A DNA stretch of 64,000 bases from Aquila chrysaetos chrysaetos (taxonomy: Eukaryota > Chordata > Aves > Accipitriformes > Accipitridae), in assembly GCF_900496995.4 (NCBI RefSeq), contig NC_054457.1, forward strand, positions 1,800,196 to 1,864,195, in the 5' to 3' direction. Shown here one piece after another: positions 10,703 to 64,000 of the stretch (position 1 is its first letter; each line of letters opens with the position of its first letter). A program made the translations under genes and the position numbers. The notes beneath the pieces are model-generated. The model searched no databases. It was not told the origin of the DNA and saw nothing but the letters and a program-made list of their open reading frames with translations.

Positions 10703-11423
10703 GTTGCATTCATGGCTTCCATGGTGTCCTGGTTTCAGCTGGGATAGAGTTAACTGTCTTCCTAGTAGCTGGTATAGTGCTATGCTTTGGGTTCAGTAGG
10801 AGAAGACTGTTGATAACACACTGATGTTTTCAGTTGTTGCTAAGTAATGTTTAGCCTCAAGTCAAGGATTATTCAGCTTCTCATGCCCAGCCAACAAGAA
10901 GGCTGGAGGGGCACAAGAGGTTGGGAGGGGACACAGCCAGGGCAGCTGACCCAAGGTGATCAAAGGGGTATTCCATACCATGTGACGTCACATCTAGTAT
11001 ATAAACTGGGGGGAGTTGGCCTGGGAGGAATCACCGCTCGGGGACTAACTGGGCATTGGTCGGCGGGTGGTGAGCAATTGCATTGTGCATCACTTGTATA
11101 TTCCAATCCTTTTCTTATTATTATTGTCATTTTATTATTGTTATTATTATCATTATTAGTTTCTTCCTTTCTGTTCTGTTAAACTGTTCTTATCTCAACC
11201 CACGAGTTTTACTTGTTTTTTCCCAATTCTCTCCCCCATCCCACTGGGTGGGGGGGAGCGAGCGAGCAGCTGTGTGGTGCTTAGTTGCTGGCTGGGGTTA
11301 AACCACGACACATGGCTACTCACTTCAGCAACCAGAACAGTGGGATCATCTTCAATAGTGTCGAATCCAATGTTGGGAATTTCTTTGATGTCATGACTGG
11401 GAGACTTGGGGCTCCAGTGAACG
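10703..11423 (+). pseudogene. C1QTNF3: C1QTNF3 (CTRP3) C1q-domain exon split by LTR
   Basis: After an acceptor (TTTGGCAG at 10695-10702) the frame reads VAFMASM and is interrupted at 10724. It resumes at 11316 with ATHFSNQNSGIIF, then VGNFFDVMTGRLGAP, ending at a GTGAGT donor at 11424. This matches the start of the globular C1q head of C1QTNF3, a secreted adipokine-type protein. The exon would be 130 bp (22 + 108). A 586-bp ERVL LTR plus a 5-bp duplication of coding bases sit inside it. No other C1QTNF3 exon was found nearby, so this is a broken copy. The family match is from memory of the human protein but is long and distinctive. Confidence 0.87.
10725..11310 (+). mobile_element. Solo ERVL LTR inside the C1QTNF3 exon
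   Basis: Complete plus-strand LTR of 586 bp, TGTCCTGG to ACCACGACA. It is flanked by the 5-bp direct repeat CATGG at 10720-10724 and 11311-11315. The repeated bases belong to the C1QTNF3 reading frame, which fixes the insertion point exactly. Confidence 0.97.
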
Positions 11424-17022: not shown

Positions 17023-17280
17023 GAACACATATGTATTTCTGGTGTGACAGGAGGATCCCAGGAGTTAACTGTATTGGAGGCTGAAGTAAGCCTAACTGGG
17101 AATGAGTGGCAGAAACACCCCATTGTGACAGGCCCAGAGGCTCTGTGCATCCTTGGCATAGACTACTCAGGAGAGGGTATTTCAAGGACCCAAGGTGGTA
17201 TTGGTGGGCTTTTGGTATAGCTGCCTTGGAGACAGAAGGAATTGAACAGCTGTCTACCCTGCCTGGTCTCTCTCAAGACC
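17023..17280 (+). pseudogene. pro: ERVL-like protease C-terminal part (provirus 4)
   Basis: Begins directly with ICISGVTGGSQELTVLEAEV. The preceding protease half with the catalytic Asp, present in provirus 3, is missing. A deletion therefore joins the gag end to mid-protease. A frame change occurs near 17165. Confidence 0.8.
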
Positions 17281-21895: not shown

Positions 21896-21903
21896 TTTTA
21901 AAT

Positions 21904-30245: not shown

Positions 30246-31210
30246 CTCTCTTAATGGATGTTTACCATTAGCAGTTAACGATTCTGCTCCTAAAAGCATT
30301 TCTTAAGATAAGTGTTAATTAGTAGTAGCGATGACTGATGTAATTATGACGAAAAAAATATGAATGCATTTACTTAAGGTTTTTTACAGCAACAGCTGTA
30401 TTAGTGTAGTAAGAGACAGCAGGCATTTTTTAAACTGTGTTAATGGAAAAAGTACAGTAACATACACAGTGTTTGAGCAGAACATGAGGCTTGTCTTCCA
30501 GGATAAATTACAATATCAAGCACAGATAAACAGAAGCATTTTTCTGAGAATGTTCTCTTTTGTTTAGAACTTGGAATCAAAGCTATTAACAATAGTCATT
30601 TATTGCTAATGAACTTAATATCTATCCACCCTGTTGTTTTTGTTGTTTTTCAAGAGTAGACAGTTGTTTTTCTCTGCTACTTGTAAAGGTATTGGGTTTC
30701 TTAACTAGTTTGTCGGTCTTTCCCCCCCATCCAAATGAATGAAACATGACCCGTTTTACACTCATACACACATGTTCCTCAGATCTGTAATCATTGCCAT
30801 CAAATCTCAGAAGAGTAGTATTATGTTATTTTTTTTTTCAGAGAGGAAGGCTACTATCTCTCAAAGTGCTTGGCTGTGAGAGTTAGGCTGCTTGTTCTAA
30901 GCCATTCAGAAATTCCTCAGTAAGATGAATGTCTCGTGTCCCTATCTTGACAGGAATTGACAAGCTTTTATGCACTGTGTAGTCCGTTGATTGTTATATT
31001 AAGTGAAATTACTAGTTTACCTTGAAAAGTATTGTATTTAGGATTATTCCTTAAGTATAAACATGTACTTGTTTACAAATATCTCTTTTAAAAGAAAATT
31101 TTGAGCAGGTACAAGCTAAGTTATAAGGATATTGTATCTAAAAATGTACTTTTTTTTCCTACTCTTAATACTGAGTGGGTTTTAAAAATACTGTTTTTCT
31201 TTCCTTGCAG
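30246..31210 (+). other. NSA2 intron, no upstream exon
   Basis: AT-rich sequence ending in a pyrimidine tract and acceptor (TTTCTTTCCTTGCAG) at 31210. I searched it for the missing NSA2 N-terminal coding exon (lysine/arginine-rich, beginning NEYIEL in human) and did not find it. Confidence 0.6.
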
Positions 31211-34200
31211 CATTAAAATGCATGAAGAGAGAAATACAAAGGAAAAGAATGATGAAAAAACACCTAAAGGAGCTGTACCAGCATACCTGCTAGACAGAGA
31301 GGGCCAGTCCTGGGCTAAGGTTCTAACATTATTAAACAGAAAAGAAAAAGCTGTAAGTAACTGTAATAAAATTCAGATACTTACTATTACTTGTGACAAT
31401 GACCACTTTGTGTTGCTGATGCTCGGGTGACTTACAGCCTATAAGCAAAGTCTAAATATTGATATTGTACAAAATCTGAAACCTTGAATTATTGAATAAT
31501 CTAGGACAAAGTAAGCATATGCAATATCTTGATCTTTCCTAACTTTAATGCTAGTTAAAATAAGTAGCTATGAGTTGTATAAAAAGTATGGTCTACCACT
31601 ACACTTTAGGGAAATTTTATTTTATGCTTTGGTTGTCCCCTTTCATGTAGCAGCGCTGCATGTAAGACTATTGACTTTTTCTTATTTTTCCCCTCCCCTC
31701 CAGGGGAAATGGGAGGTTCCTGTGCCAAAGGTCCATGCACAAGGAGAAACAGAAGTTTTAAAAGTGATTCGTACAGGAAAGAGAAAGGAGGAGGCCTGGA
31801 AGAGAACAGTTACAAAAGTTTGTTTTATTGGAGATGGCTTTACTAGGAAGCCTCCTAAATACAAATGATTCATTCAACCAATGGTAATGTTCTTGAGACT
31901 TAAAGAACATTTAAGTAATAATTCTTTTGACTTACCACTTTGAGTTCCTGTGGTAAGGAAACTTTATTCTATGATAATGCACTTGATTATTACTGATGTA
32001 GAACATTCTTATTAGTTTCCTTGCAGAAATCTAAACTTAGAATAGCCTGAGGGTGGGGAGATGCCCCTGCAGTCACAATCTGCACTGAAATATCTCAACT
32101 CTTACTCCCATAATTCAGATGATGCCAGTGAGTTAAAGCTACCAGCTGTCAAATTAGCATGGGAAGGTCTTTAGCAGAGGTACTTTGAATAGCTTTTCAA
32201 ATTGGAGGCTTCTGTCTTTTTCAAGATGCTGTGATTCTGTCAGCTGCAGAAGCCTACTCTGTTCTAGGACTCCAGAACTCCCTCCTTGTGGCTTGTTAAG
32301 TAAGCTTGAAGCACAGAGGTGACCGTATGCAAGGGAAATGCTATGCCTCCAGCCTGGCCTTTTCTTACATGGCTGCAGGAACAGCATGTGGGCTCTAGCT
32401 GCCTGGCAGTGCACAGGAGGAAAAATTAGATTCACTAAGATAGTGTATTTTTTTCTATAAATACCTGTTCCTGTTTCCTTAGAAGAATCAACAGAATCAC
32501 TATTACAGGCTGCCTGTTGGATTGTACCTCATTACTATTTTGACAGTCATCTTACACAGAAGCCTTGGATAGATTTTTATTGATGCAGAAAAGGTTATGG
32601 TACTTAGTGGTAAAGTCCCCTTTATAAAGCACAGGTCACTAGATAGAAAGTGTTATGAGAGATGGGTATTTAATATTTTACAGTATGTGAGAGGTTTTTC
32701 AGTTTTACAAGAATAAAGGAAAAATTTCTAGTCTTAAAAAACAGTAGCACTATTAAATGCTTTACCATAAACTCCTAATTTCTTCATGGAACAGAAGCCA
32801 TCTGAGGTAGCAAGTATTCTTCTTGTACTACTATTAAAAATTGGCATCCTGAAAATACACATAGAAAGCTTTATCTTGTCATTAATCAGGTTTTTAAACA
32901 AATCTGGCATTCTGTAGTAGGCAGATAGCATTCTGTATTCTAGGTGTTTCATTCTTCCCAGTCTCTTAAAACATATAAAGCTGAGGACACAATGCTAAAA
33001 GTGTTAAGCTAGATTAGTCGTGAGGGCTTAAAGCAAATATTAACTTGTTCTAACACTCCTTATGCAACAGGGCTTACGTTTCAAGAAGGCACGCATGACA
33101 CATCCTGAATTTAAAGCTACTTTTTGCCTACCTATCCTTGGTGTAAAAAAGAATCCTTCTTTTCCTTTGTATACAACACTGGGTGTAATTACCAAAGGTA
33201 CCATCATCGAGGTGAACATGAGTGAGCTTGGCCTTGCGACAGAAGGGGGCAAAGTTATCTGGGGTAAGTAAGTAGTTAAACTAGCTCTACTGCAGAACTA
33301 CTTTAAAAAGTTTTAAGTCTTTATTGTCTGATGTATTGTCAAGACCACGTCCTATAAATTGTCATAATTGATCCATTGTTAAATGTTAGGTTTGGGCTGT
33401 AGTAGAAGCAACTCCTAGGCACCTCTATAAATGCAAGTTTTAAGTTTTAATCTTAGGCTTTCAGTTCACACTTTCAACATCAAATTAGTTGAAGTTCAGA
33501 AAAAAAGACTTAACTTGCTTGCTTATGTCTCGCATTAAGTAGTGCTACAAGTCTATAAAGACCTAACTATGTGAACTATGAACAATCGTATTATGTTTTC
33601 AGTGAAAGTTCTGTATAGAAGTATATTCGTAGGACGAGATGGACTTCTTTTAACAGCGAGGTTGACTTGAACTATAGCAGAACCTATGACTAGATATAAG
33701 GAAGAATTTTTTTACAATGAGGGTGGTGAAACACTGGAACAGGTTGCCCAAAGAGGTGGTAGATACCCCATCCCTGGAAACATTCAAGGTCAGGTTGGAT
33801 GGGGCTCTGAGCAACCTGATCTAGTGAAAAATGTCCCTGCTCATTGCAGGGGGGTTGGACTAGATGACCTTTAGAGGTCCCTTCCAACCCCAAACTATTC
33901 TATGATTATTTTTTTTAATGTACCCATAACTCTAAATGATACATTTATAAAAACAGTCTGAATAAAATATTTTGAGAACCTAAGTTTGCAGCTCAGCAGC
34001 AAGTACATTTAGATTTCAAAATGCATTTCAGTTTTGGAACAGGAATTTCCTACGCTTCTAAAGCGACTTGTGGATTGAACTTGCAAACATAAAAAATTCT
34101 AATTTATTATATAAACTACTTCAAGCTTTTGTAGACATTTAATTCCCTATTCTCTTTAGGGAAATATGCACAAGTAACAAACAGTCCAGAAAATTATGGC

Positions 34201-34227
34201 TGTATTAATGCAGTTCTACTTGTCTAA
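31211..34227 (+). pseudogene. NSA2: NSA2 copy, 5' exons missing, nonsense codon
   Basis: NSA2 is a nucleolar factor for 60S ribosomal subunit assembly (about 260 residues). Four exons are readable: 31211-31352 ([18 protein letters not shown]), 31704-31883 ([18 protein letters not shown]), 33071-33263 ([18 protein letters not shown]) and 34160-34227 (GKYAQVTNSPENYGCINA, stop TAA at 34225). All introns are GT-AG. Together they cover roughly residues 65-260. Exon 4 has TGA at 31866-31868 where human has Arg. In exon 3 a 4-base and a 5-base loss shift the frame for about 25 bases (the ancestral SNIIKQKRK is readable in another frame). The first exons are absent. It is a decayed genomic copy, tail-to-tail with FAM169A as in human. 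Confidence 0.88.
33640..33907 (+). mobile_element. CR1 LINE 3' end
   Basis: Typical CR1 3' tail: GGAAGAATTTTTTTACAATG, GGTGAAACACTGGAACAGG, GGTTGGACTAGATGACC, ending CTATTCTATGATT. It lies in the NSA2 intron between exons 5 and 6. The left boundary is approximate. Confidence 0.93.
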
Positions 34228-44914: not shown

Positions 44915-45469
44915 TTAAACCGGCTTTCCTTTTTTCTTGGGTGGACCTTTGTAACCTTTGGCTTTTCTTCGCAAGTTTCTCCGATCTACAATGGGTACCT
45001 CAATTTCTGCTTCCTCAGAGCTGCTGTCAGCAGCCCGCTCTGCCATTGTCTGCGTGTACTGATCCATCTGCTCAGCAGACTCTTCCGTGTGTTCTTCTAA
45101 CTGATTCTTCTGTACTTCCTGTCCAGAAGGCTGCTGAAAAGAAACACCCTCGAGTTCAACCACTATCAAAGAGCTTCGACTCAAAGCAACAGGGGCCTCC
45201 TGTGAGTTGTGCCCTGCTTCCTCATTTTGATCTTCCACTGAGGAAGCTGTTTTGGGCAATATATTTTCAGAAACAGATTCTTCTGCTACTTCAATTACCA
45301 TAGAGTTGGGCAGGCCATTGTCAGAGGGTTCTTCCTTGGGTGCCGAAGCAGCTGCATTTTCAGTGGATGACGACTTCTTTTCAGATTCTTGGTGGTGGTC
45401 TTCAGTGCCCTTCTTCTCTACTGATGTGCTTTCTTCAGTCAGCACTTCTGAATCATTTGCATTTAAAAC
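44915..45469 (-). CDS. FAM169A: FAM169A terminal coding exon
   Basis: 555 bp to a TAA stop, acceptor CCCCTGCAG. Ser/Glu-rich, ending VPIVDRRNLRRKAKGYKGPP and a lysine cluster, a nuclear-localisation-type tail conserved with human. Confidence 0.93.
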   Translation of the reverse strand, partial: VLNANDSEVLTEESTSVEKKGTEDHHQESEKKSSSTENAAASAPKEEPSDNGLPNSMVIEVAEESVSENILPKTASSVEDQNEEAGHNSQEAPVALSRSSLIVVELEGVSFQQPSGQEVQKNQLEEHTEESAEQMDQYTQTMAERAADSSSEEAEIEVPIVDRRNLRRKAKGYKGPPKKKGKPV

Positions 45470-48400
45470 CTGCAGGGGGAGGGGAAGGGTGCCAAAGCAA
45501 TCAAAGGGACAATTAATTGATGATACAAGAGGCTGAACAACTACTGCCCCTAGCTAGCAACCTCAGAGGCTATTTTGGCATTCAGCACTACTACGTGCAG
45601 AGTCAACAAACCAGTCCTCTCCTCCTTTTTGCACAAGACCATTTTGTGAACTGCATTTGATATCCACAGTTGCTCTATTTTCAAATTCAAATTATTCAAT
45701 GGATTACTCGGGTACAGTAAAAACATTCTGAAATTAATCCCAGGGAAAAAAAAAAAAGGTGTTTTATTTGAGACAGATACAATTATCATTTTGCTAGCAT
45801 ATAACAATCTGCTTATGCACTATAAACAAAACCCAGTAAAATCTATGTTCTAGAAGGGTATTTACCATTAATTAATTGCTTGTACATTTCACCAGGGCAG
45901 AATTACTAGACAAAGTAAGATGTGGCTTTTCACTCATATCCAACTAATATTTTAGTGAGAAATAGCTGTTTCATTACTGCCAAGGCAAACTGGAGCAACA
46001 TATTTTTCTTTTTGGTATCACATACTTATATGCCCACTTCTGCATATTAAAACAGAAATATTAGTATATTCTGTTTATGGATTTACATCATCTGGCCTAA
46101 TAATTGCTTCTCCCAAGAATTTCATATGATGGTAGGAGCTACTTTCTATCTGTTACTTAACAAAAGAAAAAACAGCAAGGTATGTACACTCTGAAGGAAA
46201 GACAACTTAAGATTTTGTTTCAATTCTCTCACCTCTGATACAGTATCTTCTGAAGGTTTTGCTGGAGACTCAAGGATTAATGGAACAAACAGTGTTAAGG
46301 GTTCTTCTCCTTGACTCTCAGACTGCAATTTTGATTCACCACCTAGAAATTCATTTGCTGTTTCCTCTTCAGCCATAAGTGAGGTCTTACCAATTTCTTC
46401 TGTTACCTCATCATTAAGAGGTTCAGATGGAGTTTCCTAAAAATCACATTTCTAAGTCAATATTATGCCCAACTATTGTTCCCAAACACTAGTGGGTGTA
46501 TCTGTGATCTAAATTTGCAGCTTAATCTGAGAAGCAGCTAGCTCAGGTACCTAAAAATTACTAAGAAGGTATAGCTTAGCATAGAGTAGCTATCGAACTA
46601 CTTAACCAGCATATTAGCTTGGTATCGTCACCTGCACTAAGTTTCTGACCATGGCTTACACTGTTAGGAGCCAAGTAGTTTTTATGCATCCCACAAGCAT
46701 ACATGCTGCAGTCCTTCCTTGAAACCATATGTTAATGAACCCAACATAGTATAAGATCCACTTTCTCACCAATCAGTAAGAACATAAAACCCTGGAGGTA
46801 TCACTAGGTACAGAGGGTACTCCCAGATTTTAATTCAACCTGGTAACAAGTATTTGTAGATAAAAAGTTAGATTTAAAAATCAAAGCAGGCAAGCTTTAA
46901 GGGGAGAAATAAAACGAGTCAACAGTAGTCACTGAAGCATACCAGCTATTAGCTTCTTCAAAGAATTTTTTTTTTTTTTTTTTTAAATTAGAGATACTGG
47001 ATCAGATCTTGACCCTACTTCAGTTCTCCACAATATTTGAGTAGGACAAATCAATTAAGAAAGTTAGGTTGATAGACAAGCTAGAAATTCACCTTACCGA
47101 AGATCCTATGAACTCTATAATTCAAAATAAGTAAAGGAATATTCCCCAATACTAATTCTATACTAGCTTTAGCTTCTGAGATATACTTCTCAACAAAGCA
47201 TCGGTACAAAAATAAAAAATCAAAGAGTTGATAGTCACGTGGATCAAGGCAGCAAGGACCATACTTAACAAACTGTATTTGTATTCCAAACTTCTTATTT
47301 GCTATCGCTATCACATCCAGCTCACCTCCTTCTCACTCCATTTCTCAGGGGGTGATGCATGTAACTCCATTTCTGATACAGATCGGTCCTCATTTTCAAC
47401 AATCATTTCCTCATCATTCTCAACAGCATTCTCCTCAGGTTCTTCTACTAAGTCTTCAGAGCTTTCAAATGTGTCGGCAGAAAGTTCCAGCCTGCAGCAG
47501 GTATTAAGATATATCCTTTAAGTCTTTTAGATTAATACATAATTTTGGTGATCTTAGCAGCAGAGAAATTCTTTCATGACCAATTTTAAACTGCTATATC
47601 ACATATTTGCCATAGGAAATACGAATCCAGAAAACTAAATACATCTAAAACCAGATAACTCCTAATTCAGAAAAATACATTAGCTAAACAAAATTGCTGT
47701 GACAATTATAAAATGAAAACATCTATCCCACTTCCATTTTATATGAATAAGAATCAGAAATGTGTTTAAGTCTGTTATTTTAAATTTAGAAAGCAGTAAT
47801 CAATCACATATTTGGAAGCCACAAAGGAGTGAGAAAGGAAGCAACTTCTCCCAGCCTCACTGAAGAAACAGTTTAAAATTATGGAGCTATATAAGCAAAT
47901 ATGCTCGTATCATTGAATATACATATATTACAAAGACCATGACTGGAAAAGAATTCAAGGTGATAAACACATCAAGGCTGAAGAAGATTCAATCAGCTAG
48001 AGATTAAATTAACAAAAAGCTAAAGATGAAGCTCTGATGCACCTGATAGGTAATAACACCATCTCAAACATTCAGTTCTCATTTTTGAGATGATAAAACT
48101 TAGATGCACTGGAAGTATTATATACAAGCAAAGAAAAAAGCACACACAATAGATTTGCAGGAGGCTGCTTCACAATCTCATAATAAAGGCAGTATTGGAG
48201 GGTTTTATCCCAGGTGCCAGCCTTGAGATGAAGGCAATCCAGAGGAGAAAGTCCCTAACAGAAGACCCTGCTGCATTTGCTAATGTGCATGGAAGGGAAG
48301 AACCAAGCTGATATCCTGCCCTGTTGCCATCAGGATTCACTGTAGCTCTGCTCATGAGCACTATGTTAGACATCTTGTTCAGAGGAGTAGTGGCACCTTG

Positions 48401-51400
48401 TTGACTCCACCTTGCAAGGCCCAAAATACTGATGTTCAAGAACAGGCTAGTCATCTCACATACCAACTAGCCAATTAGTAGTAACAGCAAAGAATTTCCC
48501 AACCTGTGGCAAACCATGCCATTTGGCCTGTTTTGAACCAGCTTAGGGCAGCACACTGACAGTGCAGGACAGCAATTCTGTATCTCTGTAGTTCCACAGA
48601 GCAATTTAAAATGCAAAAATTAGGCTGTAGCTAGCTGAAGAACTCAGCCTCACAGGGGGGAAAAAAAAGAAATAATAATAATTTTATCTGTTTGAAGAAA
48701 GCTAATGGAACAAGTTTGAGGGATTTCCTAGAAAATAATCATGTCATCTTCAGTTCCCAAAAAGAAGGTTTGTGGGTTTTTGTTTGTTTGTTGGGGGTGA
48801 GGGTTATTTTGGGTTTGTTTGTTTAACAGAATGAGACACAGAGAGAGAGAAAGAAGCAGTGTGTGTCTGAGCGTACATATACCCACACACAGGAAGGGGG
48901 AGAAAGGAGCTATTTATTTATTTTAAATAGGCACAGCTCTGCTTTCTAGATGAAAGCCAGTGCAAATTAGTACTTCAGGTCCTATCTTGTATGAACTGTT
49001 ATAGAACATAAGTGGTACAATTCTTCACATCCCCACTTGACAGTTATTACACAGGATAACATTCTTTAAACTGGAGATTACTTTTTTTTAAGGATGTAAG
49101 TTCGGATACGATGGGTTTAAATCAGAATTTGTCTAAACAAAGGGGTTTACTTTGAAGACAGGTGGCTCCCTGTAACTCATTCGTTAGTAAGTGACAAGCA
49201 GTAACCAGCTCCCAAACTAAACAGTCAGGCTTTATTTTACTGCAATATGCCACCATAACAAGAGGTCAGGAAGGGACCTCTCTCCAAAGATCACACATAG
49301 TATTTGTGGATACATGTCCAGTTATATTATTGCAAGAAACTATGCTGTATGAATACAGATGGTTTTACCTTAATGCAGACTCAGTTATAACAGAACACAT
49401 CCCCTTGTACATACACCCTCAGTCCTCACTGTTTTCTTATTGTTATTTCCAATATCTACTGAGCTTTCAGAGACACCAGACATTTTGATGCAATCACTCT
49501 TCAGGTGATGTCTCAATTTCCTTTCTCACACCAGGCTTTATTTTCAGTAATTTTAAAATCAAGCACTCAGAGCAGGAAAAAAGGAGAATAAATACCAATT
49601 AGCACACTGGGAGACAGTTTGTGACTGCCCAAGCAACAAAATAAAAAATAATCAATGAAATATGGGCTCCTTTACCTGCTTTCTGACACACGAAGAACAT
49701 TTTCCTCATTTCCTTGGGAAGTTTCAGGTTCAGATTCCTGGCTATTTTTTCCTATCCTGGGACATTTTAAATGACTGCTTTGTGTCTGAATGGAAATGGG
49801 AGTTATGTCAGGGTCTTAGGAAAAAAAAAAAAAAAAAAAAAAACACAACAAACAAAATAAATGCAAGTGAACAAATGCAGTCTGTAAGATCTGCACATAT
49901 TCCCCCCCCCCAATTTCATTAAAGTGACTGAGTGCAAGTAAAACATTTCCCTGTGGTACTTATTTTCTGAATATACATGCATAGTCTCTTTACCAAGACT
50001 CAACAATTTTATCCAAAAACCTCAAAATGTTTATGAATTGAGCCTCAGCACCTCAAAGGAAGGCATGTTTTTTTATACGCTTTGCAGATGAATACGCTAA
50101 GCTTGAAAGCAGTAAAAGAGCCTGCTAGTCTACTAATCCACAGTAATCACAATACTGATAATCAAGGTTATTTTTACCTTCAGATGTGCTTGCATGGACA
50201 TCTATTGATTCTTTACCTTTTTGAGAGTTAGCCTGTGAAGTAAAAGCAAGGCTAACATTATTCCAAAAACTTCTGAATTGACTGAAATACCTTCATCTCC
50301 CTACCTGTGGTTGCATCTTTCTAAAGCACTATTTCATAGTAATGATCCTATGGAAGAGCAGCTATAACTATTCTTATTTTAAGACACTTATACGTATGTA
50401 TCTTATCTCTCAACAGATTAAATATTTTTTTATCATCTTTACTACAAGCATGAATATTTTTTCTGCATTTTACTTCTGGCCTCAACATAGAAGATAAGAC
50501 TTGAAAGTAACCTGACATTATAAACAACACTACCAAGTTTTTTCCTTACCATTCAGTTTATAATAGGTGTCCACAGAATTAAATGCTAGAAGTATTTTTT
50601 TTTCTTTTTTTCTTTTTGTGTAAGCCCAAGGGACTGTACTACAGTAGTTGACAAAATTTATCAGGACAGTTTTATATTTATACTTCTATTCTATTTTGTA
50701 GTCTGTCATGGTTTAACCCAGCAGGCAGGTAAACACCACACAGCTGCTCACTCACTCCCCCCCAAGCGGGATGGGGGGAGAGAATTGGAAGGGTAAAAGT
50801 GAGAAAATTCGTGGGTTGATATAAAGACAGTTTAATAATTGAAATAAAATATAATAATAATAAATTGTAATTAAAAAGCTGCTCGTTCACCCCCCTCCCC
50901 AAGTGGGATGGGGGAGAGAATCAGGAAAAAAAAAAAAAAAAAAAAGTACAATTCATGGGTTGAGATAAAGACAGTTTAATAGGACAGAAAAGAAAGGAAA
51001 AACAATAATAATAATTATAATAATAGTAATAAAAGATTTAGAATATACAAAACAAGTGATGCACAATGCAATTGCTCACCACCTGCCAACCAGTGCCCAG
51101 CCAGTTCCTGAGCAGCAGCCCCCGGCTAGCTTTCCCTCTAGTTTATAAACTGAGCATGACGTCATATGGTATGGAATATCCCTTTAGCCAGTTTGGGTCA
51201 GCTGTCTTGGCTGTGTCTCCTCACAGCTTCTTGTGCCCCCCAGCCTATTTGCTGGTGGGGTGGTGTGAGAAGCTAAAAAGTCCTTGACTTAGTGTAAACA
51301 CTGCTTAGCAACAACTAAAACATCAGTGTGTTATCAACAATATTCTAGTCCTAAATCCATAACACAGCACTATACCAGCTACTAGGAAGAAAATTAACTC

Positions 51401-51472
51401 TATCCCAGCCAAAACCAGGAAACAGTCTTATTTTTATTGTGACATGCAATAAAATATGGCAGCCCATGGGTT

Positions 51473-51508
<36 letters not shown>

Positions 51509-54500
51509 AGAGAAATCAGACAAGAAAAAAACCCCAGAACTTAGTGATTCAGCAGTAATGCAGGTTACATGCAGAGTCAGCACAAGTGGCTGCTTATGTC
51601 AGAGCTCCCTCTCCCTAGAGCTTTTTTGCCTCTTGTTCTTCCCTACCACCACGTTTTTTTCCTGCAAGTTAGCTGAGGACTCAGTGATCAGGCACTTGGT
51701 ACTCTGAAGTGGGTGCAAGCTATACGCATTAAAATAGAAATATGCACATTGCTCGCTCTTAGCTGCTGTAAGTAATCTAGAACTGGCAATAACCAGCATC
51801 CAGGTGTTTTGCCACCTTTTCAGCCTCACTTCCAGTACTACCCAAGGCGGCCAGAAACAAGTGGCCATATCTACATTCTGGTGCCTGAAATAGTTTCAAG
51901 TAAGCTTCAAATACATAAGAATTTGTAGGCTAATGATAAATCATTCTAGCATCAAAACACACAAAAATAGGGAACACTAAGTAAAAGGTGAAAATGTAAT
52001 TTGGGGAATGTTTTTTTTTCTGGTTTGGGGGAAGGTGAGGTGTTTTGTTTTTGTTTAGTGGTCCAACAATTTTCAAAGTGTTGCAGAACTCGTTACAGAT
52101 AGTGCAGGTGCCAAGAGACCTCCCAGCAATTCTACCAAGCTATGAGGAGTTGGAGCACTTTGGTATCTATCATCTTCCTCTTCTGGAAGAAGGCAAGAGA
52201 CAGGGCTTGAGTTCTTAACTCACAGCCACAAAAATTTTAACAACTACTAATATCCCTCTGCTATTTTCTCCAAGTATATCCATGTAGCTCTACAACCAAA
52301 ACATGCATTTTTGAGATCGTTTTGCTGATATTATCATTATTGGAATCTGAATCTAGAACTCAGTGATGATGCTTAAGACACTGTTACAAATTAAAGATAA
52401 TTAAGAGTTGTTGCTTCTGATCATTTAGAGACTAAAAACATCACTACTTTGCTGACAGTTTTGCTCTGGGAAATGCTAATTTTCTTAACTGGGAAAAGGG
52501 ACATTTGATTTACATTTCAAATCTGAAGTTTAGATACAAAGAGCTGAGAGTACCGATTCAACCATTATTTCCTACTTTTAATTAAAGCATTGACTTCTAT
52601 GAGAGCATGGTCATGTCAATACTACAGACAGTCCTGAAGCACACATATCCATCCTCACTGTATTTGGAGCTACAAGTTTTTCTCAAGCACATTCTGTGTG
52701 GCCTCAGAACACAAATGAGATAGAGGAACAGCTCCATAATATTCCAAGACACAAATATATTCATGACCACATATCCATATGTAGCTGAAGTCTGGTTGAT
52801 ATTTCAACTATGTACAAAGAAAGCTGCAGTCCTCCTATACAGTCAATGTATAATTCTGAATGCAAACTAAACACTTCCCATTGTATTGAACTGTGATGTG
52901 AATGTGCACTTCTATAAACACTTTTCCTCATTCTCTCCACTCTTATGACAACTCTACTGTTCAACAACCTTTCTAGACAGTTTAATCTCAGAGCCAGTTG
53001 AAAAACTCTCCTTCTCTAAGCTGCTAGCAAACAGCTCAAATTACTAGACCCTGACAGGTGTGACAGACCCCTCTACATTCATGGGACACCCCCCCCCCAA
53101 AAGTGTATTTTTTAACCCCAGCTTAGTCATCAGCGTTACATCAGTGGAAAGCATAACAACCACCCAAAAAGTAACAAAAGCATTTGTCTTTTATATATAG
53201 TGCAGACTTGAGCCAATTCAATTATGATGAGATGGACAAAAGGCATTTCTTATATTTTTATGGGGTTTTTTTTAGTAACAAAGCAATCAAAAAAAAGAGG
53301 TATCACTTTCTGGTGATACTTCTGATAGAATCATGGGTTCTGTCAGACTGGCTGCCACTTAGACAAAGTGAAGAGATACAGGAAGTACAAGCTCTCTGCA
53401 TAACCCAGGACTGTTCTTTGAGAACCTGAAATAGAAATATCAAGCAAGCATAACATACAGTTGATCAAAAATACTAATCTGCTGAAAACCTACATTTTTA
53501 AATTTCAGAAACATATTCTTTTGTAGAAATTAAAAATATTTACCAAGTATAAAGAACAGGTAATTAAAGTCAGAAGAATAGGACAAGATACATTATTTTA
53601 TTATAGAAAACTCTTAAAAGCTCTCAAGCCTTTTTAATATATGGAAAACAGTCTGTATACCTACACTTAGCTGTGTTTCTAGCTCAGTCTTTTGTCCACT
53701 TGCTTCAGATTCTGCTGCAGACTGTCGAAAATAATCCTCTGCTTGGAAACTTGTATTTTCTTTCTGAGAGACTTCTGCTATTAAGATTTAAAAGAGGAAA
53801 CAGGGAAAAGGAAAATTATAGTACCTTTATATAACAATTAACCATTCCAAATATGATCTCACTGATCTCGGGACAAATAAAAATCTTTCTGCTAGTTTCC
53901 ATGGGCAATGTTCACAGAAGTCACTGTTGAACAAACACTCTACAGTACAACTTTTACAAAGCATCAGAAAACAAAACAAAGCATCCATACCTGCAATTTT
54001 GAGCTTTTCTCTTTGCAATACAGTGGTAATAGGTGTTCTCTGGAACCAACATCCTGCTCCCTCCACTTCCCAAAAAAGGTCACGATCCCCAGGGTACTTC
54101 TCAAGATAGTGCTTACAAGCTGAACAAACATAATAAAAAACACACTACTATATATACACTATATACTCGTCTATACCTCAGTTTTTAAAGTTTATATGAA
54201 ATCAAATTCATTTGCAATCTTCCATCATACACATAAACCAGCACAGAAAGAACCATTCAACAAAACAGTTCAGTCTGAAATAAACATAATATTGCTTTAC
54301 CCTACCTAGTCATCCTTCTCAATAAATCCCTTCTTCAAGTTTAAGCACTTTCCATTATTATCTTAAACTGCAAACAAAGATAGATGGGATTTTTTTTCTT
54401 CTTCTCTAAGCACCCACTTTGGAGTTTTACAACTTCACTGGTCACTGTCCCTGCCAATCACAAGACCCAACCAGAATGGAAAGGGTCTTAGAGGATGTAG

Positions 54501-57500
54501 TCAAGTGTTTTTCATCACCTCGTGTTATTATAGGCACTTGTGAAAAGCACTCTTTGGGAACATGAACACGTTGCCATTGCATGGTTTATCATCCACTCAC
54601 TGTTCACTTTAGGAATATTTTCTTCTCTGCTGTCCCTCGATCTCTTTCCTCTCAATACACATACTAAACATCCACATGGAGAGGAATGTTTTTACATTAT
54701 TCTGTAGTAGCTACCAGGAAAGCTACCATTTTTCACCTGATTCACTACTGATGCATAATCTCAGTGGACAAGATCCCTGCCATATCATTCCTTGGGCAGG
54801 GAAATGGATTAGTCATTAAATTCTGCTCAAGACAGTTTGCTGTTTGAAGCCTAACAAACCAGGTCTAGACAGATCCAACAGCAGACAGTGGTACTTGGAA
54901 AAGCAGAAAATTCCCAGTGCCTAAGTAAGAAGGACAGATGAAAATGTTAATAGAAGGAAGCCTGACAGATGGCCCGAGAGTAAGCCTTGAGAAACTGGAC
55001 AAAGGAAATCCTTCTTGCCTAAACACAATCCCAAGCAACATCGTTTCCAAAATGCGTGTCATTTCCTAGCTGACATAACCCTCTTGGGTTGTTAACAGAA
55101 GAGCCATAAGTGTTTTCCTTGTACATTAGAACTGTGCTTTCTTATACTCAAGTTAAAACATAGCCTGGTATGTCCACTTGACCAGAAGTTCTGAGAAAGC
55201 ACAAATTAAATGACCTTGTGAGGCTTAGGAGTGAGCAACAAAAAGGTGCTACAATGAAGATATACGTTAGGAGATCATACACAAAACCACCTCAGCCCAC
55301 TCTGGAGGCTGGGGGGGGGGGGGGGAAGGAATATAGCAGTAAACTGCACAGTAGCAGAAAGCCAACACAGATCCAATAATCTAACCTCACACAGAGAATT
55401 AAAATCTAATCAGGAAATACTTCACCATCTTCAACAAATCAGGATTTTTAACCGTCACTGAAGAGCAGGACATTTCATACAAAAACTGAGGATGCAGCCA
55501 CAAACATGGAGCTTGAACAACAGCACTCATTTGGACATGTAAAGAAAGCACAAAGAAGATCAGAAGAATAAATCAAAGAGCTTGCCTATGTACGTGAAGG
55601 ATGACAGTGGGTATCGTAGGCCAAGAGTGTCTTCAGTAAAGGAATCCGCAAAGTCTTCCAACATGATTAGCCCAAAGTCTTTCCCACGATGTTTCTTTCT
55701 TACAAACATTGTGTCTAGCACTGGCAGCTGATAACTCTGAGTAAGAGAAGAGCTACAAATACTTCCTGAAATAATAGGGGGGGGGTGTCCATCAGTACTT
55801 CAGCATTGACATGTTGCCACATGGATTTTAGCATATTCAAATAAAGACCTTTATAATTTTTATAAATTATATCAAACTGAATATTAAGTCATATAAATAT
55901 ATAAAGTTATATTAAAGTTATAAAAATTAAAAATTGCTATCAGACATTTATTGGCTCTTTGGGCAGGCTTCATAATGTTGCCAAGATATATCATAGATTA
56001 ATATGTTAGAAAGAGTCTGCTAAAGCAGTCTGGTAGTACCAGAAAAGAATAGCAGAGAGAGAGAGAGGAAAGGCTCGCTTTGAAATCTCACTATACAATT
56101 CCATAGGAAAACCATACTAAAAATGAAGCTGAAAAAGGGAGGAGGGAAAAGGAGACAATAAAATCCTTGAATTGCACTTTTATGTAGATTATATAACTCC
56201 TCAGGACAAATATGAAGACTACAATTCAGCTCTTGTTTAAGGACTGAAACAATAATTCCAATTTTTTTTTTAAATGAAACCACAAAAAAAAAATCTTAGG
56301 ATGCTTTACATCGAAATTCTCCCATAAATAATACATTATCCATAATTAAATGAAGATGAAACACTGTCACAACATATCTGTACTTCAGCATCAGAGGATT
56401 CAAAGGGTAGCTATGGACTCAATGGTGACAAAGTGATGCCATATAATGGCATTAAGATAGCATGTCAACTATCCAATCCATTTTCAGGCCCTCATTTTGC
56501 CAGTCAGTGTGAATAATGTGTTAAAAAAAAAAAAAAATAGCCCTTTCCTCTAACAAGGCCAAAGAGAAGCATACAGTCGTCTATACAACATATTTTGTCT
56601 TCGCAACCTTGTACTTTTGAGACCAACGAACATACTTATCTTCATTTTTCAAGCAAGGAAAATGTGGGCAGAGAGGTTACATTACATGGGTACCCTTTGG
56701 GATACCAGTCAAGCTCCACCACTCTTTCCTAACCACCTGTATCCAGAACCGTCTTTCTCCACATGGGCTACTCATTTGGAGAATACATCACACAATCAAA
56801 CGGGGGTGAAATATTGATAACGCCGTCAGTGTTTGCTAACTCACGACAAGTAAATGGGAGAGCATCAAGAAAGCTATAACAAATGAGCATGAGTATAGCA
56901 AAACTTCAGTGCCACATAAACAAGCGTCCCCATTCTAGACTAAAAATGGAACCACTACTCTAATTTCCAGCTTTATAAGGCCATAACAAAAACCATTGCA
57001 ATGCAAATACTACTTTGTGACCACCATGCTACAGCATTTTTTTACATTAAAAAAAATACTGAGAATTATACAAATTATGCAATGTATCATTTCTTTAAAA
57101 AAAAAAAAAAAATCCACAAAAAGATAACAAAAGACAATCAGAACAAATTAGCTGGTTGCTTTCCTATCTTGATTGCCAGACCAGAATAGGTCAGTGATCC
57201 ACAGTTTACTACTGCATTTTTAACAGTTTGCAAAGGTATATACGTATGTTGGATGGGGGAAGTCTCCAGCAAGCCTCCAGTACCATCATTAATCCTGAAT
57301 TCATTAACCCCCTCTAGAGATAAAACAAAAATGCCAGATTGTTTCTTCTTGATCCAAAAGTTGATATTCTACAAAGTGCTATCAACGTGCTAAACAGCCT
57401 ACTCAAATACCAAATTTTATTCAGCAAAAATTGAAAAACACAATTAAGTCCAAAATAACTAAAGGGAAATTATAATGTTTTAGAAAAACAACAGAAAACC

Positions 57501-57863
57501 TGTACCATTAATGACAAACCTGCTAGCTAAACTGTAATCTCTGAGGGAACGCATGTGTGGAAGGAAAGGGAATCTCTTTTTGTTACCACCAAGTATAGCT
57601 GAATCTTGTGCCTGTGAACAAAGTTTCTATGTTGTAATGCTATAAAATGTTTAAGTGATAATGACATCTGATTCTACAATCATTTCAGATAAACAGAATC
57701 TCTGCATTCTGGAGCTAGGTTAAAAAAAAAAAACAAAAACAAACAAACAAAAAAAAACACACAAAAAAACCCCAAAAACCACAAACAAACAAAACACACA
57801 CACACACAAAACCCAAAAACAAAGCATAGCCCAATCTAACAGTAAACAATTGTTCTACAGAAG

Positions 57864-57894
<31 letters not shown>

Positions 57895-60800
57895 AAAGCT
57901 TTCAGGTATACTTCATTTCTACAATTTTAAATCAATTTTGTAGAATATGAAGAAACCTAAAAACTTTCTTAGATTACTAAAGGACATCAGCATTTAAACC
58001 AGAAATTTTAACTGCAATCTGACTTCTTATCAATTTAAGAAAACACCAACTCACTAGGCCTGCAAGGCTTGTAAAGTCTACTAAACAATATTCTTCAAAT
58101 AAGCTCCCTATCTCCCCCTCTTCTACCCCCCTCAAATCCCACAATACACACGTTTTACCTGTAGGTTTAACAGAATAGAACCCAACAGCCTCTCCTTTTG
58201 TCCACATGATCTTAGCATAGTCGTTGCTACCGTGACAGAGAAATGGGATCTCATTTCTTTCTATTTCTTGTTTCCGATAGATAATTCGATTCAGAACATA
58301 GAGAACCACCCTCTCTCCAACAGACTTCACCTAAGGAAACACAGAAAAACATTTTAGAAGAGTGGTCAGTTTAGTTGATACTCACACATCAGGGACCTTA
58401 TTTTTCAAGGTCGCCAGCTAACACAGCTGCAGACGGAGTCAAGAGAAGCTGTAAATGCTAAAGCAGGATGAAGCTCTGGGGTTTGTTTAAGGCCTAGGAG
58501 ATGCTCTGAAGCCATAGCAATAGGTTAAGTATAAAGCACTACCATAGAGGATATTTCACGACTTCAATGTCACTCCCAATCCAACGGGTAAAAGCTGAGA
58601 GACGTGCTGTGCTAGGAGTGGGGTAGTGGGGGGAATGTTTTGAATTTAACTCAGAACTATTTTTGGATTTAGGAAACATTCACCACATACAATAGCAGCA
58701 TGCCAACCTCAAATTTCCCAGGTGTATTGGCTTTGTGTGGCAAGGTTTTGGTAGCGGGAGGGGGTTACAGGGGGTGGCTTCTGTAAGAAGCTGCTGGAAG
58801 CTTCCCCTGTGTCCAACAGAGCCAATACCAGCCGGCTCTAAGACGGACCCACCGCCAGCCAAGGCCAAGCCAATCAGTGATAGTGGTAGCGCCTCTGTGA
58901 TAACATTTTTAAGAAGGAAAAAAGTTGCGGGACAGACACAGAAACGGCAGCCGGAGAGAGGAGTGAGAACATGTAAGAGAAACAACCCTGCAGACACCAA
59001 GGTCAGTGAAGAAGGAGGGGGAGGAGATGCTCCAGGCGCCGGAGCAGAGATTCCCCTGCAGCCCGTGGTGAAGACCATGGTGAGGCAGGCTGTCCCCCTG
59101 CAGCCCATGGAGGTCCACGGTGGAGCAGATATCCACCTGCAGCCCGTGGAGGACCCCACGCCAGAGCATGTGGGTTCCTGAAGGAGGCTGTGACCCCGTG
59201 GGAAGCCTGCGCTGGAGCAGGTTCCTGGCAGGACCTGCGGATCTGTGGAGAGGAGCCCAGGGAGCAGGTTTTCTGGCAGGACTTGTGACCCCGTGGGGGA
59301 CCCACACTGGAGCAGTGTGCTCCTGAAGGACTGCACCCTGTGGAAGGGACCCATGCTGGAGCAGTTCGTGAAGAACTGCAGCCCGTGGGAAGGACCCATG
59401 TTGGAGAAGTTCGTGGAGGACTGTCTCCCACGGGAGGGACCCCATGCTGGAGCAGGGGAAGAGTGTGATGAGTCCTGCCCCTGAGGAAGATGAAGCGGCA
59501 GAAATAACATGTGATGAACTGACCGTAAACCCCATTCCCCATCCCCCTGCGCCGCTGTGGGGGGTAGGTAGAGAATCCAGGAGGGAAGTTGTGCCTGGGA
59601 AGAAGGGAGGGGTGGAGGGAAGGTGTTCTGAGATTTGGTTTTCTTTCTCATTACCCTACTCTGGTTGATTGGTAATAAAGTGAGTTAATTTTCCCCAAGT
59701 TGAGTCTGTTTTGCCTGTGATGGTAATTGGTGAGTGATCTCTCCTGTCCTTATCTCGACCCACAAGCCCTTTGTTATATTTTCTCTCCCCTGTCCAGCTG
59801 AGGAGGGGGGAGTGATAGCACGGCTTTGGTGGGTACCTGGCATCCAGCCAGGGTCAACCCACCACACCAGGCTAGCAGGTAATCGGAGTCCTACAAAGAA
59901 GAAACTATGAGCCTCACAGGGTAGCAGGACTTGGCACACTCAAACACTGCTGATAGAGTGGCAAGACAACAGGACATGATGCAGTGGAAGAACTAGTTAC
60001 AACAGTTTCTGTGACATGAAACAAGGAATTCAATATCCTTTTCTCTGTTCTGCAGGGTTCCTTTTACATATGAAATTTCAAGTTCACCACTATCCTATCC
60101 ACTATGAAGGAAGAATGGAGAAACCATGTTCCCTTCCCAACGCCCAGTGTCAGCTACCCTACCTGTAAAAGATTCAGCTTTCCTGATTTACTCACCATCC
60201 TACCATTATGAAGCACAAGGAAAACAAGGCTACATGCCAAATTCTCTAGAGTAAATTTAAATACAAAGATCAAAGATGAGTGCCCAGATATGAATTACAC
60301 TCCTGGAAAAAAACAGGTTTCCAGTTTTGGAAGAAAACAAAACTCCATACTAAATAGGTGTCAGTAATGGTAACACAGCTCAATGATGACCAATAAAGCA
60401 GATACCAGGCAACTTACTTTCCTAAGCCTCATGTATTGCCACTGCAGGCCACCAGCTCCAACTTGCCTCTATCAAACAGGTTCCTTTAAATATTTTTAGC
60501 TTACTAGTCTCCTGATAAAACCAATAAGTACTGCTATGATAGAATGTACCACTCTACTAAGACATTTCAATACAATCAGACATATTATGTTCTAAAGAGT
60601 AAGGAAAAAAACTCTTCTTAACATCATTAACATCTAAATAGCTTGCATATGAAGCTACTGTACAAGAGTCCCTTTCTCTAGACACTGTCTTCACAACCCT
60701 TCCCTCTAGTACCTATTTCCTCTATTCCCATTGACCTTGCTTTTGACATGAGACAGCTAACTCATTTCTGAATGAAATGAAAACATGTAACATCTCACAC

Positions 60801-63220
60801 ACTAGCTATTTGCCATTACTTGCCATTATCTTGAAGAATAAGAATAATTGCTAGGTGAATATTGGAGCACTTTACCTGCTGAAGCCCCTCTCTAGAAGGG
60901 ATGGATGTTCTCAAGATGTCATCAATTGACCACCACCGGTCAGCAAGATGCAGGGCTACAGCTTGAAAGAAACAAGGGGAAATAAAAAGTTAGAGATTCT
61001 TAACATTCCAAAAAGAAACATTCATTAAAGCTGCTAAACAATTAGGAATAACACTGTAGTAACCAGGTTAAGCATCTTCTAGTTGGCACTATATTAATGC
61101 AGCTCTTACTACCTTAGCACAACATATGTGGTGCTATACAGCCCCTCCCATATGCAGTGCTGTATTGGGTTTGCATGACAAGGTTTTGGTAGCAGGGGGA
61201 GGGGGGCTACAGGGGTGGCTTCTGTGAGAAGTTGCTAGAAGCTTCCCCTATGTCCAATAGAGCCAATGCCAGCCGGCTCTAAGAGAGACCCACCATTGGC
61301 CAAAGCTGAGCCAATCGGCAACGGTGGTAGTGCCTCTGGGATAACATTTAAGAAGGGAAAAAAACTGCTGTGCAACAGCAGCTGGGAGAGAGAGGAGTGA
61401 GAGCATGTAAGAGAAAACCCTGCGGACACCAAGGTCAGTGAAGAAGGAGGGGGAGGAGGCACTCCAGGCACCAGAGCAGAGATTCCCCTGCAGCCCCTGG
61501 TGAAGACCATGGTGAGGCAGGCTGTCCCCCTGCAGCCTATGGAGGTCCACAGTGGAGCAGATATCCACCTGCAGCCTGGGGAGAACCCCATGCCAGAGCA
61601 GGTGGATGTGCCCTGAAGGAACCTGTGATCCAGTAGAGACCCCGTGCTAGAGCAGGCTCCTGGCAGGACCTGCGGACCCATGGAGAGGAGCCCACGCTGG
61701 AGCAGGTTTTCTGGCAGGACTTGTGACCCTGCAGGGGACCCACGCTGGAGCAGTGTGCTCCTGAAGGACTGCACCCTGTGGAAGGGACCCATGCTGGAGC
61801 AGTTCGTGAAGAACTGCAGCCCATGGGAAGGACCCACGTTGGAGAAGTTCGTGGAGGACTGTCTCCCGTGGGTGAGACCCCATGCTGGATCAGTGGAAGA
61901 GAGTGAGGAGGAAGGAGCAGCAGAGAACATGTGATGAACTGACTGCAACCCCCATTCCCCATCCCCCTGAGCGGCTCAGGGGGAAAAGAAATCGGGAATG
62001 AAGTTGAACCCAGGAAGAAGGGAGGGGTGGAGGGAAGGTGTTCTGAGATTTGGTTTTATTTCTCATTATCCTACTCTGATTTGATTAGTAATAAATTAAT
62101 TTCCCCAAGTCGAGTCTGTTTTTTGTCCATGATGGTAATTGTTGAGTGATCTCCCTGTCCTTATCTCGACCCACAAGCTTTTCGTCATATTTTTCTCCCC
62201 CTGTCCAGTTGAGGAGGGGGAGTGATAGAGTGGTTTGGTGGACACCTGGTGGCCAGCCAAGATCAATCCACCACAAATGCTCCCTGGTGCAAAACTTGTT
62301 TGAAAACTGAGAACAATAAAACCAAATGCAGATTTTGTGCAGCATGACATACAGGAACTGTGTCACTGTGCTCTAACACCTCCTTCTACTAAAAACTGGG
62401 CCTACCAAGAAGAGTCTAATTCATACATGTATTTTAGTTTTGGGTTGTTAATGGATATTGATATTTAAACTGTGCAAGTTTTAGGGAGCCAGATGAATGT
62501 AAAAAGGCTGATGGCCATGTGATTAGCAATCAGGAAGAGTTTGATCCACAGGTATTTGTGGCAAACTTAGCAATCATATACATGGCATTATATGGAAAGA
62601 GAAGGAAACATGAAGGACTAGAAAGGAAGGGAGAAAGGGAAGAAAAAAAACCCAAAAAGAGTGAGATGTCACCTTGGCCAGAGCTATGTTAGGACCTGAA
62701 GGTAAAGACAAATTTACACTTGATGCTGATTAATCACTGCTAATAAAGAGCATCTAAATTCATGGGCAAATAAATAGATTCTATGAATGCTCAATTAATT
62801 CCTTTTGGAGAGGCGAGGTGTACATAAAGCAAGACACACATGTTGTACTTGGATTCAGATGAGCACCATGTTATTTTGCTACATATCTTCTGAATTCAGT
62901 GGGTCCAGTTCTACTCTGATTAGCAAGCAATGTTTTATCACTTGTGTATATGAATCCACAACAAGCACAGTATGAGAACAAGAAGGCAGTGAACAACAAA
63001 TGCAAAAGTGTCAAAGTTATGAGCTACACTAGCATGGAATGAGCAAGAGCCTGGTTACATGTATTTGTCACAGAAAAAGAAACAGCAACACACACGGAGA
63101 TTAGAATCTTAAAATGAAACCTGTGAACAAGTCCTCTGGTGCAAACAAAGCAAGAACTTTGTGTGTCTGCTCTTCACCATAAAGAGGAACGAAGCCCACA
63201 GTTGACAAGCTAATAGGAAC
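44915..63220 (-). CDS. FAM169A: FAM169A (SLAP75), 11 coding exons, 5' incomplete
   Basis: FAM169A encodes a soluble lamin-associated protein of about 75 kDa at the nuclear periphery; its biochemical role is poorly known. Coding exons on the minus strand: 63220-63121, 60961-60876, 58330-58159, 55765-55586, 54119-53991, 53777-53665, 50232-50178, 49814-49676, 47491-47326, 46436-46233, 45469-44915. They sum to 1899 bp with phases that fit and no internal stop, about 632 residues of an expected ~675 (human about 670). The conserved N-terminal half includes VGFVPLYGEEQTHKVLALF, GERVVLYVLNRIIYRKQE and SYQLPVLDTMF. The C-terminal half is acidic and ends with a basic RRNLRRKAKGYKGPPKKK. The start exon is not in the window. 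Introns hold three solo LTRs. It appears intact, unlike NSA2. Confidence 0.92.
46233..46436 (-). CDS. FAM169A: FAM169A exon j
   Basis: 204 bp (68 codons), acceptor GATTTTTAG, donor GTGAGA. Reads ETPSEPLNDEVTEEIGKTSL through LFVPLILESPAKPSEDTVSE. Confidence 0.88.
47326..47491 (-). CDS. FAM169A: FAM169A exon i
   Basis: 166 bp, acceptor CTGCTGCAG, donor GTGAGC. Acidic: LELSADTFESSEDLVEEPEE to EKWSEKE, phase 2 to 0. Confidence 0.88.
49676..49814 (-). CDS. FAM169A: FAM169A exon h
   Basis: 139 bp, donor GTAAAG. The acceptor is CCTAAG after an uninterrupted run of 23 T. A second AG 34 bases further in (ATTCAG) would not keep the frame. Reads TQSSHLKCPRIGKNSQESEP, matching human LKRPKIGKRFQDSE. Confidence 0.85.
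50178..50232 (-). CDS. FAM169A: FAM169A exon g
   Basis: 55 bp, acceptor TACTTCACAG, donor GTAAAA. Reads ANSQKGKESIDVHASTSE, matching the human ASTSEG region. Confidence 0.85.
50704..51424 (-). mobile_element. Old ERVL LTR in FAM169A intron, with internal duplication
   Basis: Minus-strand LTR starting TGTTTCCTGGTTTTGG at 51424 and ending GGTTAAACCATGACA at 50704. The 3' part (GTTTAATA... to the GGGATGGGG box) is present twice in tandem (about 50740-50850 and 50885-50985). A poly-A run of 22 lies at 50925-50945. The LTR is 721 bp. No clear TSD. Confidence 0.85.
51425..53664 (-). other. FAM169A intron sequence
   Basis: Intron part between exons f and g, outside the LTR. It holds a poly-A run at 51478-51505 and nothing coding that I can support. 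Confidence 0.6.
53665..53777 (-). CDS. FAM169A: FAM169A exon f
   Basis: 113 bp, acceptor CTTAATAG, donor GTAGGT. Reads EVSQKENTSFQAEDYFRQSA to TELETQLS. Weakly conserved; supported by phase, splice sites and order. Confidence 0.78.
53991..54119 (-). CDS. FAM169A: FAM169A exon e
   Basis: 129 bp, acceptor TTTGTTCAG, donor GTATGG. Reads CKHYLEKYPGDRDLFWEVEG then AGCWFQRTPITTVLQREKLK, phase 1 to 1. Confidence 0.92.
55586..55765 (-). CDS. FAM169A: FAM169A exon d, GC donor
   Basis: 180 bp, acceptor TATTTCAG. Reads SICSSSLTQSYQLPVLDTMF through EDTLGLRYPLSSFTYI. The exon must end at ATAG followed by GCAAGC to keep the frame into the next exon, so the donor is GC. The nearby GT (GTACAT, 7 bases upstream) would give an immediate stop in the next exon. 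Confidence 0.88.
57721..57898. repeat. A-rich low-complexity tract
   Basis: Runs of A with CA and AAAC units, including (CA)n near 57796-57808 and long A runs near 57862-57883. It lies in a FAM169A intron with no other content. Confidence 0.85.
58159..58330 (-). CDS. FAM169A: FAM169A exon c
   Basis: 172 bp, acceptor TTTCCTTAG, donor GTAAAA. Reads VKSVGERVVLYVLNRIIYRK through GEAVGFYSVKPTG, phase 0 to 1. Nearly identical to the human protein. Confidence 0.93.
58723..59866 (+). mobile_element. Solo LTR, TGTATTGGC type, in FAM169A intron
   Basis: 1144-bp LTR, TGTATTGGCTTTGTG to CAACCCACCACA, flanked by CCAGG at 58718-58722 and 59867-59871. It is opposite to FAM169A. It contains imperfect 45/48-bp units at about 59293-59430 and an AATAAA near 59673-59678. 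Confidence 0.96.
60876..60961 (-). CDS. FAM169A: FAM169A exon b
   Basis: 86 bp, acceptor TTTCAAG, donor GTAAAG. Reads VALHLADRWWSIDDILRTSI then PSREGLQQ, phase 1 to 0. Confidence 0.9.
61161..62275 (+). mobile_element. Solo LTR, TGTATTGGG type, in FAM169A intron
   Basis: 1115-bp LTR, TGTATTGGGTTTGC to CAATCCACCACA, flanked by AGTGC (61156-61160) and AATGC (62276-62280), a 5-bp TSD with one mismatch. More diverged than the copies at 28 and 58.7 kb. Confidence 0.93.
63121..63220 (-). CDS. FAM169A: FAM169A exon a
   Basis: 100 bp, acceptor TTGTTTCAG, donor GTTTCA. Reads VPISLSTVGFVPLYGEEQTH and continues to FAPEDLFT, matching human residues from about 45. It ends in phase 1. Confidence 0.9.
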
Positions 63221-64000
63221 CTGAAACAAGAATGTACAATACTTCAATAGACTTTTGCTAGTACAACATTAGTAAGATATACAGAGAATGTTTAGCAGGG
63301 TAAGCAAGACAAATGTTGAAAAGCGAGTGCTTAACAGTTAACTGTAAAAGACAAGTATCAGACCTTGGCCCTTACTTTAGAAGTTTTCTTCCTAAAGACA
63401 GACTACATTATAGAGAGCTCTGACTCTCAAGCTTTGGCAGATTTAGCTACAGCAATTTATACTGTTACAGCTCTCTGCTGTCAGCAGTTTGCATTTATGA
63501 GCACAACTGAAGTACAGTGTGCAAAGAGCCAGCAGTACGTTCACTTCAACTGCCCCAGCTACGCAAGCTATCAAAGCTGACAGAAGAATGAGGCAGGCAG
63601 GCACAGAAACAAACTGGCACAGCAAAATTGCTGTTTGTTAACATGAGCCCTAACGTGCCAAGCTGGGAAAGTTGGATTCAAAAGGGTTTTCTTCCCTTAA
63701 ATTGCACACATTTTAGAAATTCCAAATTTGCCTGCTTGACTTTCCCTCAGGAACAACATGAGAAGGGTCAAATTAATCCACCTTTCAGGAGTTGAGAACC
63801 TTTGTGAAAATGCATTTTGATATTTAAATTTGCACATTTTCAATAATTAATTAATGCATTAAAACTAGACAGGCATTAATGGTGTGTTAAATAGACTTGC
63901 TTACCCAATTTAAGAAGATTATGATATGCTATGCCACAAACAATGATGTTAATATAAACAAATATTTAGGTATACAGCACCTGCAGAAATGCAGGAAAGT
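63221..64000. other. FAM169A upstream intron, nothing recognised
   Basis: 780 bp upstream of the first visible FAM169A exon. I found neither the missing first coding exon nor a repeat here. Confidence 0.5.

Follow-up and report, generated by a model that had tools for sequence, protein, structure and literature searches.

What becomes of a gene when one of its exons can still be recognised and that exon has been split by a retroviral repeat? The question is raised by a stretch of golden eagle DNA (Aquila chrysaetos chrysaetos, contig NC_054457.1, positions 1,800,196 to 1,864,195), the whole 64,000 nucleotides of which we refer to as "the window." Within it, a coding exon of C1QTNF3 is interrupted by the long terminal repeat (LTR) of an endogenous retrovirus (ERV). 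We consider it highly probable that the locus is a decaying W gametolog of C1QTNF3, which we take to be a Z-linked gene, with an exon split by a solo LTR of the ERV3/ERVL type and with the rest of the gene gone or displaced. Here, we describe the split exon, the LTR, the chromosomal setting, the competing explanations and the likely timing of the decay.

The split exon

The two parts of the exon lie on either side of a single LTR with the ends TGTCCTGG...CCACGACA (Table 1); an internal retroviral region is absent between them. Removing the LTR leaves a 130-bp exon with 43 codons in a single frame, VAFMASMATHFSNQNSGIIFNSVESNVGNFFDVMTGRLGAPVN, in which codons are neither added nor missing. Both exon borders are kept (acceptor TTTTGGCAG, donor ACG/GTGAGT), as in an unprocessed gene copy. 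An earlier note on this DNA had the C1QTNF3 frame halting at 10724 and resuming at 11316, with a 586-bp LTR between copies of CATGG, and re-reading the coordinates gave the same positions. The insertion point is indeed fixed to the base, as that note held: CATGG stands on both sides of the LTR, and the frame is continuous once the LTR is removed. The open frame is lost, since reading through the LTR brings a stop at the eighth codon after VAFMASM. The directly repeated CATGG, LTR ends of the form TG...CA and a frame that continues across the insertion together argue for integration over misassembly.

Alignment to avian C1QTNF3 confirmed that both flanks belong to one exon of this gene. In tblastn searches, human CTRP3 matched the split exon with E 2.9e-17, and the avian C1QTNF3 proteins of Aix (P0072) and Corythaeola (P0068) matched with 92% identity (E 2.5e-17 and 7.0e-18, respectively). 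General libraries give weak evidence because the piece is short: the Pfam C1q model scored 18.2 bits against the 35-amino-acid 3' part alone, under its cut-off of 23.7, and the best PDB match to the exon piece was not significant (E 0.27). Twelve of the 95 alignment rows listed were read, 11 of them avian and one from a turtle. The exon stretch is the same in nine of the 11 avian rows (from MASM on in P0122, a crane row on a 90.6-Mb contig that was not used as W). The remaining two are a pelican "-like" row, P0121, which differs by three residues, and the pheasant row P0118, which is without the exon; grouping P0118 with the W copies was rejected, its model merely being without this exon. The eagle exon has three amino-acid changes relative to the nine identical rows (Table 1) and has therefore drifted where the other rows read have not.

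The split exon is all that was found of the gene. With five C1QTNF3 queries (human CTRP3, Aix P0072, Corythaeola P0068, Pelecanus P0121 and Gymnogyps P0129), the remainder of the protein was not found in the window; all other tblastn hits had E values of at least 0.4. The points at which aberrant models break off suggest that the C1q head would use further exons after ...APVNG. As the rest of the protein has no match in the window, no C1q head is encoded here even without the LTR. It is thus true, as the earlier note stated, that no functional head can be made unless the LTR is removed, but removal alone would not give one. The LTR is one of several lesions in this copy, and the eagle locus is most probably a W gametolog in which a single exon is still recognisable, rather than a functional C1QTNF3 that has been broken.

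The inserted LTR

The LTR is a real repeat, because four other near-full-length copies lie in the window (87–90% identical to it) and one of these, at 4243-4823, has a perfect 5-bp duplication, ACTGC, on both sides. No clear 5-bp duplication was seen at the edges used for four other LTR copies inspected. Target-site duplications are given as 5 bp in ERV3/ERVL, 4 bp in ERV1 and 6 bp in ERV2 in the passage of PMC6523648 used here. The ERVL label of the earlier note stands insofar as the 5-bp CATGG fits the ERV3/ERVL convention, with the class name itself unsettled. A tRNA-Leu primer is expected from the name ERVL, whereas the primer-binding site after the copy at 7026-7609 looks like the tRNA-Lys type, which counts against calling the element simply ERVL. 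Pieces of reverse transcriptase/RNase H, and weak ones of integrase, occur elsewhere in the window; a PDB search with one pol piece gave nothing. A minus direction for the LTR, raised by nearby minus-strand pol, was dropped because the TATA box and a copy preceding a plus-strand gag/pol piece favour plus.

Other copies of the family form compound structures. At 3985-5154, the LTR at 4243-4823 is nested in a reverse-oriented copy of the same family. The stretch 15634-30245 holds a pair of like-oriented LTRs of the family, 94% identical, on either side of gag-like and pol pieces that have further ERV sequence between them; this is perhaps a provirus with a nested insertion.

Evidence for W linkage

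We infer that the window is W-chromosome sequence, and its C1QTNF3 copy W-linked, from two observations: (i) over 368 columns, the FAM169A exons of the window show no difference from an Aquila chrysaetos protein whose contig is 11,729,522 bp long, and (ii) the W chromosome of that golden eagle assembly is 11.73 Mb. The FAM169A of the window also groups with the W clade. Of the 20 Z rows, 18 fall apart from it, and ostrich and kiwi, the remaining two, form the nearest outgroup. Z and W labels for FAM169A rest on the size of the carrying contig and on the "-like" label.

Several points weigh against a decaying W gametolog. The W label rests on protein identity of a neighbour and a match in size rather than on matching DNA or reads from females, and the published golden eagle W consists of unordered fragments, the largest of which is named W. 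The eagle Z copy of C1QTNF3 was not seen, and tblastn could miss short collagen exons. Finally, not everything in the region is dead, since the nearby FAM169A has an open frame and could still function.

In Pelecanus crispus, the C1QTNF3-like model P0121 and the FAM169A-like model P0166 are both on a contig of 22,193,281 bp. A fuller C1QTNF3 copy has probably been retained on the pelican W.

Alternative explanations

The alternative that survives best, though we judge it unlikely, is that the exon is a separate duplicate, not a W gametolog, moved among ERVs by rearrangement. This would account for the presence of a single exon and for its company: the next recognised genes, NSA2 and FAM169A, belong to a different part of human chromosome 5 than C1QTNF3, and AMACR, which we take to be the human neighbour of C1QTNF3, was not found in the window (tblastn best E 1.1). 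However, rearrangement erodes gene order on W chromosomes, and the pelican models, a C1QTNF3-like beside a FAM169A-like on contigs of equal size, fit a shared W origin.

It is very improbable that the locus represents the sole or Z-linked C1QTNF3 gene of this species, newly disabled by the LTR as a null allele or a species-level loss. A fresh knockout would suit the otherwise intact frame and splice sites of the exon, but not the missing match to the remaining protein in the window, the placement of the neighbouring FAM169A with the W clade and away from most Z rows, the decay of the adjoining NSA2, or the three amino-acid changes that none of the nine identical avian rows has.

Least credible is an assembly error in which an LTR-bearing read was misjoined into an exon collapsed from Z and W: W scaffolds are full of repeats and difficult to assemble, as the unordered fragments of the golden eagle W illustrate, but a 5-bp duplication exactly at the TG...CA ends with a continuous frame is the mark of integration, and an exon with substitutions of its own is not a collapsed Z exon.

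A decaying W gametolog would have arisen as follows: (i) recombination with the Z stopped, and the W copy of C1QTNF3 held an intact exon for a long time; (ii) an ERV3/ERVL-type retrovirus integrated in the exon, duplicating CATGG; (iii) recombination between the two LTRs of the retrovirus left a solo LTR; and (iv) other parts of the gene were lost or moved by deletion, rearrangement or more ERV insertion. The insertion would have brought in the stop just after VAFMASM and destroyed the C1q head. The route to a solo LTR and the order of these steps are our reconstruction.

Timing of the decay

The terminal branch of the focal LTR, an upper bound on change since insertion, is 0.046–0.057 by triplet estimates and 0.037–0.051 without CpG sites. 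Neutral change in the exon was simulated in 4000 runs per value of K, with assumed indel and transition rates. The simulated chance of a kept frame and splice sites, no stop and at most three amino-acid changes was 0.44 at K 0.03, 0.15 at K 0.05 and 0.04 at K 0.07, falling to 0.004 at K 0.10 and 0.000 at K 0.15. The exon is compatible with neutral drift up to about K 0.05, which is similar to the LTR terminal branch. In the collared flycatcher, synonymous divergence between Z and W is 0.26–0.33 in the part of PMC4468903 used here; the eagle W branch would perhaps be 0.10–0.16 if it is like that of the flycatcher. It is unlikely that the exon has been neutral since Z and W parted, because simulated survival is close to zero at a flycatcher-like W branch. 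Decay of the exon may have begun near the insertion, as judged across species with rough rates.

From the intact splice sites, the earlier note had suggested that the gene was still recognisable when it was hit. The simulation supports the suggestion, but splice sites alone are insufficient evidence for it, given that frame and splice sites alone survive neutral drift at K 0.05 in 43% of simulations. The condor "-like" row P0129, on a contig of 116,008 bp, has the exon without the LTR, and its model stops at the exon end; if P0129 is a W copy, the LTR insertion is younger than the hawk–condor split. A bolder history, which we offer tentatively and regard as doubtful, would have C1QTNF3-W under purifying selection for most of its time on the non-recombining W and killed by the LTR once hawks and eagles had parted from New World vultures, and a female-specific transcript of the exon might start at the TATA box of the sense-oriented LTR (10998).

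Neighbouring genes and other features

Table 1. Features of the window. The suffix -W marks copies assigned, by the reasoning in the text, to the W chromosome; the further FAM169A-W exons span 46230..63223 and have approximate edges, being tblastn ends.
Feature	Position	Strand	Remarks
C1QTNF3-W exon, 5' part	10703..10724	+	VAFMASM and first base of next codon, after acceptor TTTTGGCAG; matches avian C1QTNF3 rows
Target-site duplication, left copy	10720..10724	+	CATGG; letters read
Putative solo LTR	10725..11310	+	586 bp, TG...CA; same direction as exon; TATATAAA at 10998
Target-site duplication, right copy	11311..11315	+	CATGG; letters read
C1QTNF3-W exon, 3' part	11316..11423	+	Before donor GTGAGT; S>N, T>S, F>L at exon codons 21, 25, 38
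NSA2-W exon remnant	31209..31352	+	3-residue gap relative to human
NSA2-W exon remnant	31704..31888 (end approximate)	+	In-frame stop TGA at 31866-31868
NSA2-W exon remnant	33071..33268	+	
NSA2-W last coding exon remnant	34159..34224	+	
FAM169A-W last coding exon	44918..45472 (edges approximate)	-	Open to stop
Further FAM169A-W exons (1)	46436-46230, 47493-47326, 49815-49675, 50232-50179, 53784-53653	-	tblastn, P0182
Further FAM169A-W exons (2)	54138-53992, 55769-55587, 58330-58148, 61001-60870, 63223-63110	-	tblastn, P0182

The putative W neighbours have met unlike fates: several exons of NSA2-W survive as remnants, one of them with an in-frame TGA, whereas FAM169A-W is open. In the FAM169A rows P0135-P0247, the W protein is nearer to ostrich than the Z protein is in nine of ten birds with both rows, the exception being Limosa (128 columns). 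Over residues 1-270, the distance to ostrich is 0.067–0.098 for W and 0.14–0.30 for Z, with this order in all eight pairs. The W copy of FAM169A thus looks more ancestral than the Z copy by its protein sequence. It is unexpected for a W gene to change at a lower rate than its Z counterpart.

A unit of ~1.1 kb occurs three times (28024-29164, 58723-59866 and 61161-62275; 83–94% alike), with long minus-strand open frames and internal tandem repeats of 39–48 bp. A Rfam search of the window gave nothing at gathering thresholds, and no host family exceeded its Pfam cut-off in searches with the FAM169A exon and other open frames.

Comparison with known systems

Literature searches found nothing linking C1QTNF3 to the Z chromosome in birds or to the W chromosome, nothing for FAM169A with the W chromosome, and, among the matches listed, nothing for NSA2 with the W chromosome or as a gametolog. 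The names of all three genes are absent from the main text of the bird W-chromosome papers searched. For LTR insertion in W coding exons, no phrase for exon insertion or W-linked pseudogenes occurred among the matches listed.

If C1QTNF3 was long retained on the W, a secreted factor of the C1q/TNF family joins the genes thought to resist loss. More generally, the locus offers a W-gene loss with a lesion fixed to one base, scorable as present or absent across hawks and eagles. An LTR shared or missing at known nodes would place the death of one W gene on the tree, for comparison with the time at which that exon began to drift neutrally.

Three kinds of known system bear comparison, each by the portion of its source used here. 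The bird W has been described as a refugium in which ERVs accumulate (Peona et al. 2021, PMC8310711), and the eagle window is likewise ERV-dense and repeat-rich, with solo LTRs and proviral pieces; the eagle insertion differs in being tied, to the base, to a named exon. The collared flycatcher W carries pseudogenes of the Z gametologs IFNB, FCHO2, SMC2, NTRK2 and HOMER1 (PMC4468903). These are, like eagle C1QTNF3-W, Z-homologous W copies with a lost frame, but stops and frameshifts mark the flycatcher cases, whereas the eagle exon is split by an LTR and the gene is C1QTNF3. Lastly, avian LTR insertions with 5-bp duplications serve as phylogenetic markers (PMC4540587); the eagle LTR is likewise a presence/absence character flanked by a 5-bp target-site duplication, in this case putatively W-linked and in a coding exon. 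The build-up of ERVs and the loss of genes on the W are an already known kind of event; what is new is the precise instance, C1QTNF3 on the W.
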